Shown piece after piece: positions 31,551 through 56,326 of a stretch of DNA of 64,000 nt. The stretch is from Streptomyces sp. RPT161 (GTDB taxonomy: Bacteria; Actinomycetota; Actinomycetes; Streptomycetales; Streptomycetaceae): assembly GCF_027533845.1 (NCBI RefSeq), contig NZ_JAPZVN010000003.1, positions 372,001-436,000 on the forward strand. The letters are read 5' to 3'. The notes beneath the pieces were generated by a model that saw nothing but the letters and a program-made list of their open reading frames with translations, searched no databases and was not told where the DNA came from. Made by a program: the position numbers and the translations under genes. Each line of letters opens with the position of its first letter. The stretch's first letter is position 1.

Positions 31551-31634
31551 CGGGGTTCGGGGAGAAGGCCCCGAAGATTCCCCATAACCAACAAGACCGG
31601 TCAGCGACTTGAAGCTGACCGGTCTCACTCGGGG

Positions 31635-31706
31635 TGGGCGATACTGGGTTCGAACCAGTGACCTCTTCGGTGTGAACGAAGCGCTCTCCCACTGAGCTAA
31701 TCGCCC
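31635..31706 (-). tRNA. tRNA-Val(CAC), copy 1
   Basis: 72 bases with acceptor stem GGGCGAT/ATCGCCC, D arm GCTCAGTGGGAGAGC, anticodon stem CTTCG/CGAAG with loop TTCACAC (anticodon CAC) and T loop TTCGAAC. CCA is not encoded. Identical to the copy at 32311. Confidence 0.95.
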
Positions 31707-32242: not shown

Positions 32243-32310
32243 GGCGCCCAGTGTGACGGCAACGCACGAGGGCCCGGAAGCCTTCTCGGCTTCCAGGCCC
32301 TCGGTCGGGG

Positions 32311-32382
32311 TGGGCGATACTGGGTTCGAACCAGTGACCTCTTCGGTGTGAACGAAGCGCTCTCCCACTGAGCTAATCGCCC
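32311..32382 (-). tRNA. tRNA-Val(CAC), copy 2
   Basis: Base-for-base the same mature sequence as copy 1 (acceptor GGGCGAT, anticodon loop TTCACAC, T loop TTCGAAC). A possible -10 (TAATGT, near 32397-32402) lies upstream; no good -35 was seen. Confidence 0.95.
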
Positions 32383-37340: not shown

Positions 37341-37413
37341 GCGGACGTGGCTCAGTTGGTAGAGCATCACCTTGCCAAGGTGAGGGTCGCGGGTTCGAAT
37401 CCCGTCGTCCGCT
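37341..37413 (+). tRNA. tRNA-Gly(GCC)
   Basis: 73 bases: acceptor GCGGACG/CGTCCGC, D arm GCTCAGTTGGTAGAGC, anticodon stem TCACC/GGTGA with loop TTGCCAA (GCC), T loop TTCGAAT. First of five tRNAs. Confidence 0.96.
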
Positions 37414-37440
37414 CGGAGGGGGTCCCTGGATCCTCGACGT

Positions 37441-37511
37441 GGTGGAGTGGCCGAGAGGCGAGGCAACGGCCTGCAAAGCCGTCTACACGGGTTCAAATCC
37501 CGTCTCCACCT
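37441..37511 (+). tRNA. tRNA-Cys(GCA)
   Basis: 71 bases: acceptor GGTGGAG/CTCCACC, anticodon loop CTGCAAA (GCA), T loop TTCAAAT. It lies 27 bases after tRNA-Gly and one base before tRNA-Val. Confidence 0.96.
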
Positions 37512-37512
37512 C

Positions 37513-37584
37513 GGACGATTAGCTCAGCGGGAGAGCGCTTCCCTGACACGGAAGAGGTCACTGGTTCAATCCCAGTATCGTCCA
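37513..37584 (+). tRNA. tRNA-Val(GAC), copy 1
   Basis: 72 bases: acceptor GGACGAT/ATCGTCC, anticodon stem CTTCC/GGAAG with loop CTGACAC (GAC), T loop TTCAATC. Confidence 0.96.
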
Positions 37585-37626
37585 CTGGGTCCGCGAGGGC
37601 CCAACGGTGCCCCTGCGGTACCACCC

Positions 37627-37698
37627 GCGCGATTAGCTCAGCGGGAGAGCGCTTCCCTGACACGGAAGAGGTCACTGGTTCAATCCCAGTATCGCGCA
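37627..37698 (+). tRNA. tRNA-Val(GAC), copy 2, variant acceptor stem
   Basis: Same body as copy 1, but the acceptor is GCGCGAT/ATCGCGC: positions 2 and 3 and their partners 71 and 70 all changed together, so pairing is kept. Body, anticodon and T loop are unchanged. Confidence 0.95.
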
Positions 37699-37726
37699 CC
37701 AGGCCCTACCAGGGGCCTTTGCACAA

Positions 37727-37798
37727 GGACGATTAGCTCAGCGGGAGAGCGCTTCCCTGACACGGAAGAGGTCACTGGTTCAATCCCAGTATCGTCCA
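37727..37798 (+). tRNA. tRNA-Val(GAC), copy 3
   Basis: Identical in its 72 bases to copy 1 (acceptor GGACGAT/ATCGTCC). Last tRNA before the terminator. Confidence 0.96.
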
Positions 37799-37804
37799 CA
37801 CCAT

Positions 37805-52416: not shown

Positions 52417-53271
52417 TCAGGCGGCGGGCTTGCCGAAGGCGGGGACGACCGCGCCCTTGAAGGTCTGCTCGATGTACTGCTTGACCGCGTCGGAGTTGAG
52501 CAGCTTGGCGAGCTTCTGGACCCGCGGGTCGTTCTGGTTGCCCTCCTTGACCGCGAGGAAGTTGGCGTAGGGGTTGCCCTTCGCCTTCTCCAGCACCAGG
52601 GCGTCCTTGGACGGGTTGAGGTTGTCGCCTATCGCGTAGTTGCCGTTGATGATCGCGGCGTCCACGTCGTCGAGGGCGCGCGGCAGCTGGGCGGCCTCCA
52701 GCTCCTTGAACTGCAGGTGCTTGGGGTTGTCGGCCACCGACGCCGGGGTGGCGTCGTTGCCGGTGCCGGGCTTGAGGGTGAGCAGCCCGTTGGCGGCCAG
52801 CAGCTTGAAGGCGCGGCCCTCGTTGGTCGTGTCGTTGGGGACGGCGACGGTGGCGCCGTCCTTGATGTCCTTGACCGACTTCGCCTTGTGCGAGTACAGG
52901 CCCAGCGGCTCCAGCTCGACGTTCACCACCGGCACGATGTGGGTGCCGTTCTTCTTGTTGAAGTCGTCCAGGTAGGGCTTGTGCTGGAAGAAGTTGGCGC
53001 CGACGTCGCCGTTCTCGGTGGCGGTGTTCGGCAGCACGTAGTCGGTGAACTCCCTGACTTCCAGCTTGAGCCCGGCCTTCGCGGCCAGGTGGTCCCGGAC
53101 GAAGTCGAGGATCTTGGCGTGCGGGGTGGGGCTCGCGGCCACGATCAGCGGCGCGTCGGCGCCCTTCTGCTGCGCGCTCGAACCGTCGGACGAGGACGCG
53201 CAGGCGGTGGCACCGAACGCGAGGGCCGCGGCGGCGAGCAGGGAGGTGGTGAACTTGGTTGCGGTACGCAC
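52417..53271 (-). CDS. metQ: Methionine ABC transporter substrate-binding lipoprotein MetQ
   Basis: NlpA-family lipoprotein of 284 residues. The signal peptide has a basic start RTATKFTTSLLAAAALAFG, and the likely lipobox Cys is in ATACASSSDG (about residue 24). The mature domain shows VAASPTPHAKILDFV, ANFFQHKPYLDDFNKKNG, VAVPNDTTNEGRAFKLL and IINGNYAIGDNLNPSKDAL, all MetQ hallmarks. It ends the metN-metI-metQ unit, 162 bases after metI. It binds methionine (D or L) or derivatives on the outer surface. Confidence 0.94.
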   Translation of the reverse strand: MRTATKFTTSLLAAAALAFGATACASSSDGSSAQQKGADAPLIVAASPTPHAKILDFVRDHLAAKAGLKLEVREFTDYVLPNTATENGDVGANFFQHKPYLDDFNKKNGTHIVPVVNVELEPLGLYSHKAKSVKDIKDGATVAVPNDTTNEGRAFKLLAANGLLTLKPGTGNDATPASVADNPKHLQFKELEAAQLPRALDDVDAAIINGNYAIGDNLNPSKDALVLEKAKGNPYANFLAVKEGNQNDPRVQKLAKLLNSDAVKQYIEQTFKGAVVPAFGKPAA

Positions 53272-53433: not shown

Positions 53434-54111
53434 CTACGCTGCCGCGGCTCGTCTGCCGCGGCGGGCCAGGGAGCTGGCGGCCAGGTCGCCGAGCAACTGG
53501 ATGGCGGTGACCAGGACGACCAGGATGACCAGAGTGATCAGCATGACGTTGGTCTCGAAGCGCTGGTAGCCGTAGCGGATCGCCAGGTCACCCAGGCCGC
53601 CCGCGCCGACCGCGCCCGCCATCGCGGTGTAGCCGACCAGCGCCACGGCGGTGGTGGTCAGCCCGGACACCAGCGAGGGCAGCGCCTCCGGCAGCAGCAC
53701 CTTGCGCACCACGGTCCAGGTGCCGCCGCCCATCGACTGCACCGCCTCCACAAGGCCGTGGTCGACCTCGCGTATCGCGGTCTCCACCAGGCGGGCGAAG
53801 AACGGGATGGCGCCCACCGCCAGCGGCACGATCGCCGCCTCGGCGCCGATGCTGGTGCCGATCACGTACCGGGTGAAGGGGATCAGCGCGACCATCAGGA
53901 TGATGAACGGCAGCGAGCGGCCGACGTTCACGATCGCTCCGACGACCTTGTTGACCGCCGCGTTCCGCAGCAGTCCACCGCGGTCGGTGAGCACCAGCAG
54001 CACACCGAGCGGGAGTCCGACGATCACCGCGATCGCCGCGGACCACAGCACCATGTAGATGGTGTCCCAACACGCGGGCAGCAGCATCGGCTGCAGCTCG
54101 TCCCAGGTCAC
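53434..54111 (-). CDS. metI: Methionine ABC transporter permease MetI
   Basis: 225-residue permease with five predicted helices. The EAA-type loop is AVQSMGGGTWTVVRKVLLPE, preceded by VGAIPFFARLVETAI, and the family segment GYTAMAGAVGAGGLGDLAIRYG is present. It overlaps metN by four bases (its ATG lies in the metN stop region) and belongs to the same transcript. It pairs with MetN to form the transporter. Confidence 0.94.
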   Translation of the reverse strand: MTWDELQPMLLPACWDTIYMVLWSAAIAVIVGLPLGVLLVLTDRGGLLRNAAVNKVVGAIVNVGRSLPFIILMVALIPFTRYVIGTSIGAEAAIVPLAVGAIPFFARLVETAIREVDHGLVEAVQSMGGGTWTVVRKVLLPEALPSLVSGLTTTAVALVGYTAMAGAVGAGGLGDLAIRYGYQRFETNVMLITLVILVVLVTAIQLLGDLAASSLARRGRRAAAA

Positions 54112-55166
54112 TTCGCGGCCTCCTTGACCAGCGTGTCGTCAGCCTTCGGCGTGGCGGCGCCGTTCACCGACGCGACGTCGACCTGGAGGCCCTTCTCCCG
54201 CAGGAACCCGATGGGCACCACGTTCTCCTCGAAGCGGCCGGGTAGTTCGATCCGCATCCGGCCGACCTGGCGACCGCCGATGGTCTCCATCGCCGCGCCG
54301 AGGATCGAGATGTCGATGTTGTAGGTGCGGGCGAGTTGGGAGATGACCGGCTGGGTGGCCGCCTCACCGTGGAAGGTGAGGTCCACCACCGTGCGGCCCT
54401 CCTCGGAGGGCTCGCCGCCAACCGGGAAGAGTTCCTGGGCCAGTTCGGAACCGGGGGTCGCCAACAGTTCGGCTACGGTGCCGGATTCCACGATGCGGCC
54501 TCCCTTCATCAGCGCGGCCGAGTCGCAGACCGCCTTGACCACGTCCATCTCGTGGGTGATCAGCAGGACGGTCAGCCCCAGCTGCTGGTTGAGATCGCGC
54601 AGCAGTTGGAGGATGGAGCGGGTGGTCTCCGGGTCGAGCGCCGAGGTGGCCTCGTCGGACAGCAGCACCTTGGGGTCGCCCGCCAGCGCGCGGGCGATGC
54701 CGACCCGCTGCTTCTGGCCGCCGGACAGCTGTGCCGGGTAGGCCTTCGCCTTGTCGGCGAGGCCCACCAGGTCCAGCAGTTCCAGCGCCTTGCGGGACCG
54801 CTCCTGCCCGCAGATGCCGAGGATCTCCAGCGGCAGCTCGACGTTGTCCTGCACGGTGCGCGCGGACAGCAGGTTGAAGTGCTGGAAGACCATGCCGATC
54901 TGGCTGCGGGCGCTGCGCAGTGCCGCGTTGGCACGCCGGGAGCGACCGGCCAGCGCGGTCAGGTCGGTTCCGGCGACCTCTACGGTGCCGGAGGTGGGGC
55001 GCTCCAGCAGGTTGACGCAGCGGATCAGGGTGCTCTTTCCGGCGCCGCTGCGGCCGACGACGCCGAACACCTCGCCCTCGCGGACGTGTAGATCGACGCC
55101 GTCGAGAGCGACTGTCTCCCGACCTCGCGAGTGGTAGACCTTACTCAGGCCCGTGGTGGTGATCAC
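54108..55166 (-). CDS. metN: Methionine ABC transporter ATP-binding protein MetN
   Basis: 352 residues: ABC ATPase with Walker A GRSGAGKST (about 38-46), Q-loop FQHFNLLS, signature LSGGQKQRVGIARAL, Walker B VLLSDEATSALDP and H-switch ITHEMDV. A C-terminal NIL regulatory domain (about 270-345; TFHGEAATQPVISQLARTY) can bind methionine to inhibit transport when the substrate is plentiful. GTG at 55166. The gene is preceded by a roughly 0.5-kb leader with a Met/Cys-ended short reading frame. Confidence 0.95.
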   Translation of the reverse strand: MITTTGLSKVYHSRGRETVALDGVDLHVREGEVFGVVGRSGAGKSTLIRCVNLLERPTSGTVEVAGTDLTALAGRSRRANAALRSARSQIGMVFQHFNLLSARTVQDNVELPLEILGICGQERSRKALELLDLVGLADKAKAYPAQLSGGQKQRVGIARALAGDPKVLLSDEATSALDPETTRSILQLLRDLNQQLGLTVLLITHEMDVVKAVCDSAALMKGGRIVESGTVAELLATPGSELAQELFPVGGEPSEEGRTVVDLTFHGEAATQPVISQLARTYNIDISILGAAMETIGGRQVGRMRIELPGRFEENVVPIGFLREKGLQVDVASVNGAATPKADDTLVKEAAK

Positions 55167-55272
55167 TGGGTTTCCGTCACTGTCGAGTACGTACCGGGGT
55201 GTCCGTCACGTACGGATGTGTCCGTCTCGGATTACGGCAGGGCGCGGCCCGGGTACACCAGGCGGCGGTGTG

Positions 55273-55398
55273 TCAGAGGGAGTGGGTGCCCGGCGGCTGC
55301 GGGTCGTGGGCGAGTCGGCAGCGCTTGATCGCCGCGAGGCACATGTGCCGGCTCGCGGCGGTGGCCATGGCGAAGGCTCGGGGCACTGGATTGGTCAT
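55273..55398 (-). CDS. Possible small protein gene in the metNIQ leader, 41 codons
   Basis: ATG at 55398 to stop at 55273, with strong G/C third-base bias. The peptide includes FAMATAASRHMCLAAIKRCR and ends PQPPGTHSL. It lies between the leader peptide frame and metN. It may be a true small protein or a second regulatory frame; the ribosome site is weak. Confidence 0.45.
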   Translation of the reverse strand: MTNPVPRAFAMATAASRHMCLAAIKRCRLAHDPQPPGTHSL

Positions 55399-55497
55399 CG
55401 GGTGTCCGTGGTGCGGGAGCGGTCCGGATGCGGACGCCGCTCTGCTCTGTCCGTAGGGGGTTGCTCGCTTCGGGGCGCGAGGCTCAGGCAGGGGCCC

Positions 55498-55581
55498 TCA
55501 GAGTTCGCACATTCGACACATACGACGAACACCGGGCGTCATCGCCTCGGTCGCACGGCTGCGGCTGTTCGTCGTCGTCAT
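55498..55581 (-). CDS. Candidate leader peptide upstream of metNIQ
   Basis: 27 codons starting MTTTNSRSRATEAMTPG and ending RRMCRMCEL, so two Met and two Cys codons cluster next to the stop. Directly after the stop (TGAGGGCCCCTG) come short complementary stretches, including CTCGC/GCGAG around GCCCCGAA. The position at the head of the methionine-importer leader and the Met/Cys ending suggest translation-coupled control by sulfur amino acid supply. This is inference; the ribosome site is weak (TGGGGCG). Confidence 0.5.
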   Translation of the reverse strand: MTTTNSRSRATEAMTPGVRRMCRMCEL

Positions 55582-55672
55582 GCGCCCCAGTAAACCAGAC
55601 AGCGCTCGAACGTTCCGCATTCCGATCCGATTGTCCGCCATGCGGACAGCGCGGTGTCCGGCGGCGGTGTGC

Positions 55673-56326
55673 TCAGCCGTCGCAGCGCAGCGTCACGCCG
55701 ACCTCGTCCACCTGCGCGGACACCTGCGAGAGGTCCCTGACCAGCACATCGGCGTCCAGCTCCGCCGGGTCGTGGGTTGTGGTCAACGCCACCGTGCGCA
55801 TCCCGGCCGCCCGGCCCGCCCGCAGGCCCGCGGGCGCGTCCTCGAACACCGTGCACCGCCCCGGCCGGAACCCCAGCTTCTCGGCGGCGACCAGGAACGG
55901 CGCCGGATCGGGCTTGCCGCGCCGCACGTCACCGGCGCTCACCAGTAGGCCGGGGGCTATCCCGGCCGCCGCCAGCCGCGCCTCGGCCAGCCGCCGGGTG
56001 GCCGAGGTCACCACCGCCCACCGCTCGGCGGGCAGCGAGGCCAGCAGTGCGAGGGTGCCGGGCAGCACCACCAGACCGTCGACGTCCTGGACCTCAAGCT
56101 CCTCGATCCTGGCCAGCGCCTCCGGGACCCGCTCGGCGGGCAGCAACTCGGCGATGATCTCGACCGCGGGCCGCCCGTGCAGCTGCACCCGGGCGAACCG
56201 CTCGGCGCCGATCCCGTACTCCCGCGCCCAGCGGGTCCAGCAGCGGACGACGGAGTCCAGCGAGGAGACCAGCGTTCCGTCCATGTCGAACAGCAGGGCG
56301 TCGGTGCGGAAGTGCGAGGGGCTCAT
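55673..56326 (-). CDS. HAD-superfamily phosphatase
   Basis: 217-residue HAD hydrolase subfamily IA (phosphoglycolate phosphatase/beta-phosphoglucomutase-like). Motif I is DALLFDMDGTLVSS with the nucleophile Asp near residue 15; VVTSATRRLAEARL gives motif II; KPDPAPFLVAAEKLG carries the motif III Lys; and VFEDAPAGLRAGRAAGM motif IV. The C1 cap points to sugar phosphates. ATG at 56326. It is independent of the metN leader, whose start faces its 3' end. Confidence 0.88.
   Translation of the reverse strand: MSPSHFRTDALLFDMDGTLVSSLDSVVRCWTRWAREYGIGAERFARVQLHGRPAVEIIAELLPAERVPEALARIEELEVQDVDGLVVLPGTLALLASLPAERWAVVTSATRRLAEARLAAAGIAPGLLVSAGDVRRGKPDPAPFLVAAEKLGFRPGRCTVFEDAPAGLRAGRAAGMRTVALTTTHDPAELDADVLVRDLSQVSAQVDEVGVTLRCDG

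Follow-up and report, generated by a model that had tools for sequence, protein, structure and literature searches.

The gene metN of Streptomyces sp. RPT161 begins with a GTG codon at position 55166 of the minus strand and is separated from the upstream gene (last base 55673) by a gap of 506 bases. This gap raises the question of whether the operon behind it is preceded by a regulatory leader and, if so, of what kind. The window, which is the whole stretch of 64,000 nucleotides that was analysed, encodes metN, metI and metQ downstream of the gap, and the NCBIfam matches of these genes (Table 1) agree with an earlier sequence-only reading in which the operon was described as importing methionine. 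Sections of the gap aligned at 72-89% with relatives from the same and from other genera (DNA search of 61 genomes, oriented alignment). Since, in addition, a small upstream open reading frame (uORF) was retained in 118 of 120 leaders, the conservation of the leader is not attributed to chance. We infer that the leader is likely to be a Met/Cys-responsive leader-peptide attenuator of metNIQ. The step by which transcription would be stopped is proposed far more tentatively.

A riboswitch was considered and rejected as an explanation of the leader. A covariance-model search with Rfam at the gathering threshold returned only tRNAs in the window, a search of the leader up to E 5 returned only a sub-threshold snoRNA match, and nothing relevant was returned for 20 related loci. 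The sequence-only reading had likewise recognised no SAM riboswitch core. It had named a non-conserved frame and a standard riboswitch as the two findings that would speak against a leader peptide, and neither appeared.

Table 1. Features of the metNIQ locus and its leader, with positions in the window
Feature	Position	Strand	Basis or occurrence
Palindrome TGTCCGN5CGGACA, 5' of the uORF promoter	55632..55648	-	possible regulator site
Extended -10 box TGG-TTTACT, 7 nt 5' of the ATG	55589..55597	-	invariant bases, spacing of 6-7 nt
uORF, probably leaderless (metL orthologue), 27 codons, MTTTNSRSRATEAMTPGVRRMCRMCEL, stop TGA	55498..55581	-	recognised in 118/120 leaders
Proposed sensing site ATG TGT CGA ATG TGC GAA CTC TGA	55498..55521	-	codon conservation
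C-rich, G-poor region between the uORF stop and metN, candidate for Rho loading	55167..55497	-	C.432, G.275
GGGCCC directly 3' of the stop	55492..55497	-	GGGY near the stop in 99/118 leaders
Short hairpin CTCGC-GCCCCGAA-GCGAG (CTCGCGCCCCGAAGCGAG), 17 bases after the stop	55464..55481	-	73 exact, 77 relaxed of 118 leaders
Second small ORF, MATAASRHMCLAAIKRCRLAHDPQPPGTHSL; further in-frame ATG at 55398	55273..55368	-	11/118 leaders
Hairpin just 5' of the metN start region	55187..55213	-	covariation
metN, ATP-binding subunit	54108..55166	-	best NCBIfam match TIGR02314 MetN, 373.5 bits, below the cut-off of 499.7
metI, permease	53434..54111	-	NF008049 MetI, 231.7 bits, above the cut-off of 212
metQ, substrate-binding lipoprotein	52417..53271	-	TIGR00363 MetQ/NlpA, 197.2 bits, below the cut-off of 228.85

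The uORF and its start

When 61 genomes were searched with the DNA of the gap, 30 loci were returned, of which 21 were aligned, the remainder being short matches. The alignment revealed a strongly conserved block that consists, in order, of TGNTTTACT, six to seven bases, the ATG, the frame, the stop, GGGCCC and a hairpin. A broader sample was drawn regardless of the frame. A MetI search of 150 genomes of the family at E 1e-50 was positive in 120 and the 30 genomes without MetI were left out, and the upstream DNA from 119 MetI-positive genomes together with that of the window itself made up 120 leaders. The family was taken as Streptomycetaceae, from named relatives in a second collection.

With one exception, the rule for recognising the uORF demanded an open frame with a Cys codon towards its end. 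It was widened stepwise, from 105 of the 120 leaders to 114 and then to 118, because the missed leaders were found on inspection to have other second codons or -10 boxes, and in one leader (L058) the uORF was placed via a typed stretch. The 27-codon frame that had been proposed for the window from its sequence is present, on the minus strand and with a TGA stop, and was kept in nearly all of the metI-bearing genomes of the family. Two leaders were not counted. One of these (L124) lies on a contig that ends 125 nt before metN. The other (L074) has lost the promoter and the 5' part of the uORF while CGTATGTGTCGAATGTGTGCCTGA, the Met/Cys end and the stop are retained, which makes it a natural test case. 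In the second collection, comprising Streptomyces and Kitasatospora, the uORF was recognised by the rule in 43 of 47 loci; three of the four misses have a uORF on inspection and the fourth (L216) starts too close to metI. Within the genome of RPT161, a search for further copies of the uORF gave weak matches only (E 0.002 or worse), and there was no NCBIfam family model for the uORF peptide or for the second small ORF of Table 1.

A mechanical ORF call opens the frame at an earlier ATG (55641), which gives 47 codons, and 55581 was adopted as the working start on the grounds of conservation and the -10 box. In 35 diverse leaders the T, G, T, T, A and T of the extended box TGnTTnAnT were invariant, and the hexamer ended 7 nt from the ATG in 96 of the 118 leaders and 6 nt from it in the other 22. 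With the box only six to seven bases before the ATG, the transcript probably begins at the ATG of the uORF itself, at 55581. A leaderless start was determined by RNA-seq for the metL peptide of S. lividans, according to the available part of PMC8079986. The RNA leader would therefore be about 415 nt in length, and the figure of 506 bases given by the sequence-only reading holds for the gap and probably not for the transcript.

Codons at the end of the uORF

The distance from the ATG to the last CG[AC]ATGYG motif took twelve values between 69 and 138 bases, all of them multiples of three (118/118 leaders), and the 140 copies of the motif in these leaders were all in frame. This in-frame spacing is partly selected by the rule, which requires an open frame with Cys close to its end, yet just two of the 120 leaders were excluded. 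Stops were present in one of the alternative frames in 111 and in the other in 44 of the 118 leaders. The uORF itself ended with TGA in 96 leaders and with TAG in 22. In three leaders (L066, L086 and L143) the uORF is 37-50 codons long, as further residues have been inserted in frame after the first Cys/Met group and ahead of the final RRMC or GRMC.

The clustering of Met and Cys codons beside the stop, on which the earlier reading was built, was a constant feature. The last nine uORF codons had a mean of 2.8 Cys and 1.76 Met with at least one of each in 118/118 leaders. For comparison, 36 long frames of the window with 14,110 codons have 128 Cys and 232 Met. Of 114 leaders, which are those of the intermediate step of the rule and the basis of all CGA counts, 110 had CGA and 4 had CGC as the codon preceding the last Met. 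Elsewhere in the uORFs, just 9 of 352 Arg codons were CGA, and in the frames of the window 62 of 1,221. The codon following the last Met was Cys in 103 leaders and the Arg codon CGC in 11, which identifies Met as the fixed element and Cys as nearly so. Three codons led from the last Met to the stop in 98 of the 114 leaders, two in 15 and four in one. The conserved end is therefore a nearly invariant CGA-AUG-UGY followed usually by two codons, sometimes by one, and the stop, with more Cys/Met codons usually preceding it.

Cys codons of the uORFs were TGT in 237 of 398 cases versus 17 of 128 in the frames of the window, and the sole tRNA-Cys of the window has the anticodon GCA. This tRNA belongs to a Gly-Cys-Val-Val-Val cluster (window positions 37341-37799) and would read the TGT codons of the uORF by wobble. 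Similar scores were obtained for two tRNA-Val genes (CAC) located at 31633-31706 and 32309-32382.

Amino-acid-level purifying selection was not clear outside the motif, as the median dN/dS was 0.71 (229 pairs) and 1.18 (282 pairs) in two length classes, and the case for the uORF is consequently made by its frame and its codons. RNA structure within the uORF beyond that given by the codons was indicated weakly, with a mean z of -0.51 relative to synonymous shuffles and negative values in 25 of 34 related sequences. Peptides of more than 33 codons and near-duplicates were left out of this set of 34 uORFs.

RNA after the stop and modes of attenuation

In the mechanism that we propose, transcription would start at the ATG of the uORF and a ribosome would translate the leader. 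With Met (and Cys) in ample supply the ribosome would pass the terminal codons and leave at the stop, so that C-rich RNA would be exposed and RNA polymerase would terminate early, with Rho as the most likely agent. A shortage of charged tRNA-Met or tRNA-Cys would instead halt the ribosome at the AUG/UGY codons beside the stop, where it would cover the start of the C-rich RNA, and transcription would continue into metNIQ. Slow codons, namely CGA and a wobble-read UGU, should sharpen the pause.

RNA on which Rho loads is C-rich and G-poor. Between the uORF stop and metN, C exceeded G in 118/118 leaders (C.456, G.291). The same excess was seen in 4 of 16 control rows taken from other intergenic DNA of the window, which represent 13 distinct stretches between mechanically predicted genes, three of them scored on both strands. 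An intrinsic terminator was not found in 55100-55750, and TTTT occurred 3' of the stop in just 6 of the 118 leaders. A ribosome-shielding attenuator of the Rho type is preferred here because of the constant excess of C over G and the known composition of Rho-loading RNA. Taken alone, the Rho step is suggested by base composition and by the lack of a terminator and is put forward as possible, with chances somewhat short of even.

Translation attenuation, in which stalling in the uORF would alter RNA pairing and free the ribosome-binding site of metN, is considered somewhat unlikely. The polycysteine uORFs of mycobacteria, which are the closest leaderless system with experimental support, are described in these terms in the available parts of PMC13236596 and PMC9031893, and in part of the family a covarying hairpin lies directly 5' of the metN start region. 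Both sides had changed in six of the nine pairs of this hairpin among 46 distinct sequences, and 0 of 500 shuffles reached the observed covariation score. The test was restricted to leaders with a conserved TCGACAG block (48 of the 118, 46 of them distinct), and an earlier subset of 37, from which several shifted-register sequences had been left out, gave the same outcome as all 46. Against this reading, the predicted mean accessibility of the ribosome-binding region of metN was the same with the ribosome stalled at Met (0.49), at the stop (0.50) or absent (0.49). A change of more than 0.05 between the stalled state and the stop was upward in 21 and downward in 28 of the 118 leaders. The distance of 96-359 nt from the uORF stop to metN (118 leaders) also argues against it.

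In transcription attenuation as in trp operons, the hairpin after the stop would act as the terminator and a competing hairpin as the antiterminator. The complementary stretches that the sequence-only reading placed at once after the stop do include such a short hairpin, which begins 17 bases further on. CTCGCGCCCCGAAGCGAG or a close variant was present in 77 of the 118 leaders, and GGGY was found at the stop in all 77 of these versus 22 of the 41 leaders that lack the hairpin, a co-occurrence that is confounded by relatedness. Folding of the 77 leaders with the ribosome masked gave mean hairpin probabilities of 0.95 in the stalled state, 0.98 at the stop and 0.84 in ribosome-free RNA. A difference of more than 0.05 between stalling and the stop made the hairpin less probable on stalling in 20 of the 77 leaders and more probable in 2, which is the direction that a trp-type switch would take. 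In the ribosome-free leader of the window, moreover, the 5' arm of the hairpin was predicted to pair upstream with a probability of 0.94, as compared with a mean of 0.12 for the 77. The hairpin nevertheless forms on average whether the ribosome is stalled or at the stop, it is absent from 41 leaders, U tracts are almost absent and an intrinsic terminator was not found, as described above, so that a trp-type attenuator is judged improbable.

A consensus RNA structure over 35 leaders (RNAalifold) contained no pairs, and a clear alternative-stem switch that depends on the position of the ribosome was not seen in the masked folding. Classical stem swapping as a part of the attenuator is thus not supported by the folding models, given that the stem occurs in just 77 of the 118 leaders and that folding showed no clear switching. 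The earlier proposal of an attenuator is supported by the terminal Met/Cys codons, conserved with the frame in 118 of 120 leaders, by the lack of a riboswitch match and by the agreement with the published metL, which was called an attenuator independently (PMC8079986, available part). In two leaders (L065 and L089) the stem has the form CCCGC...GCGGG.

Arrest by the nascent peptide, whose end would sense free methionine, SAM or the redox state instead of tRNA charging, also appears improbable. The last residues (CRMC) and their distance from the stop are strongly constrained, as such a peptide would require. A redox signal would be in keeping with the rise of S. coelicolor metNIQ under oxidative stress, which is reported along with a predicted SenR site in the available part of PMC4991794; in view of this response, control at the promoter may act as well. 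Replacement of the Cys by Arg in 11 of 114 leaders and insertions of several residues just upstream in some leaders do not fit a peptide sensor, and the fixed CGA suggests a constraint on the codon or the RNA and not on amino acids alone. It is very improbable that the uORF encodes a small protein with a function in trans, or that it merely couples translation, with no sensing of amino acids. Small ORFs with a leaderless start occur commonly in mycobacteria (PMC4633059, available part), but dN/dS is near 1 outside the motif, the uORF ends well before metN without overlapping it, and Met and Cys are concentrated at its end ahead of a methionine importer.

Two further elements were observed in the leader. 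The second small ORF lies between the uORF and metN, and its core RCRxAHxxQPPG is common to 11 of the 118 leaders. It has a PPG motif and ends RCRLAHDPQPPGTHSL in the window and often RCRLAHDPQPPGTRC in relatives. Away from metN leaders, no convincing copy was detected in 26 genomes, the best other match having an E of 5.4e-4. The palindrome is found upstream of the uORF in 49 of the 118 leaders, where TGTCCGN5CGGAC lies 57-69 nt before the ATG. A palindrome regulon was rejected, as the genome of RPT161 has two exact full sites, one besides that of the leader, which is about the expectation from composition (our own estimate is near one). A regulator is not claimed for the palindrome for this reason.

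The ribosome-shielding reading could be extended to a dual sensor of sulfur amino acids, an elaboration that we regard as unlikely. The slow CGA would set the ribosome on the AUG-UGY pair beside the stop, and a shortage of either charged tRNA-Met or tRNA-Cys would keep it there, where it would block Rho without alternative hairpins. In the lineage of the window, the second uORF (core RCRLAHDPQPPGTRC, whose PPG could pause ribosomes) and the metN hairpin would then form a second checkpoint in a tandem-uORF leader.

Occurrence beyond the family and related systems

A sequence model of the conserved block (R1) was built from 35 leaders of the family. Of 84 family genomes, 81 were matched at E 2e-15 or better, a result that is in part built into the model, given its source in leaders of this kind. 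In a second family of the order, 8 of 14 genomes gave a match with an E of 3.3e-5 or better. Seven of these eight loci, which were fetched because R1 matched, have a Met/Cys-rich small ORF before metN with the end CRMCGC, CRMCSC or CRMYGC, and in five of the seven a TATAGT box is located 7 bases 5' of an ATG. Beyond the order, CGNATGTGY was present in 4 of 39 metN leaders, most being without the motif. The site precedes metN in two of the loci from outside the order (L174 and L184), and in L174 the end CRRMCGC is followed by TGAGGGCCCCC and then by a near-identical hairpin with one extra C in the loop.

Judged by sequence, most of the sampled metNIQ operons in the family appear to carry a translated leader that Rfam misses. 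If the proposed mechanism is correct, this would be a case of amino-acid attenuation without the textbook stem swap, in which Met and Cys are read together. It would also provide a compact element of about 100 bases in which the access of Rho, pausing at rare codons and the translation of leaderless mRNA come together for study, and the emphasis on Met and Thr in the published account of S. lividans would give way to one on Met and Cys.

The orthologous peptide is already in print as metL of S. lividans TK24 (SLIV_29928), and the available part of that paper shares with our leader the metNIQ operon and a peptide of the type MSTTSDRTPATEATTTPGARCMCRRMCAF, and it reports a leaderless start such as is probable here (PMC8079986). 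It describes metL as an attenuator whose termination is 'unclear' and, as here, without a typical Rho-independent terminator. That account, as far as its available text goes, covers one strain and mentions Met and Thr, whereas a Cys and Met end was found here across 114-118 leaders and the threonines fall within the initial, variable portion of the uORF. Two further features shown across the same 114-118 leaders, the CGA-AUG dicodon and the variation in length that keeps the frame, go beyond the available description (PMC8079986). In the literature searched, no other paper was found to name this leader peptide. New in the present analysis are the family-wide conservation, the Cys beside the Met, the near-invariant CGA-AUG, the covarying metN hairpin and the second small ORF (11/118 leaders).

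The cys leader peptides of actinobacteria surveyed by Seliverstov et al. in 2005 are likewise short ORFs with Cys codons near the stop and no terminator, for which Rho was proposed (PMC1262725, available part). In this survey, which also mentions tnaC, no conserved RNA structures were reported upstream of actinobacterial methionine operons (PMC1262725, available part).

In tnaC of E. coli, a ribosome that stays at the end of the leader frame would block Rho just past the stop, as is proposed here for the metNIQ leader. The sensing by tnaC is of free tryptophan and involves the nascent peptide.

Polycysteine leaderless uORFs of mycobacteria were reportedly described by Canestrari et al. in 2020. 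In mechanism, these uORFs are the nearest studied relatives. The leader of the window falls outside the polycysteine class, which is defined by a run of consecutive Cys codons and a cysteine operon, as it has a mixed Met/Cys/Arg end and precedes a methionine importer. The mycobacterial uORFs, as portrayed in the available parts of the sources, have clusters of Cys before cysteine-related genes, in contrast to the mixed Met/Cys codons, the fixed CGA-AUG and the methionine importer found here, and the likeness noted here is one of features. What the two share is a short ORF, leaderless there and probably so here, with codons for sulfur amino acids near its stop, placed ahead of a sulfur-related operon (PMC4633059, PMC9031893, PMC13236596, available parts).
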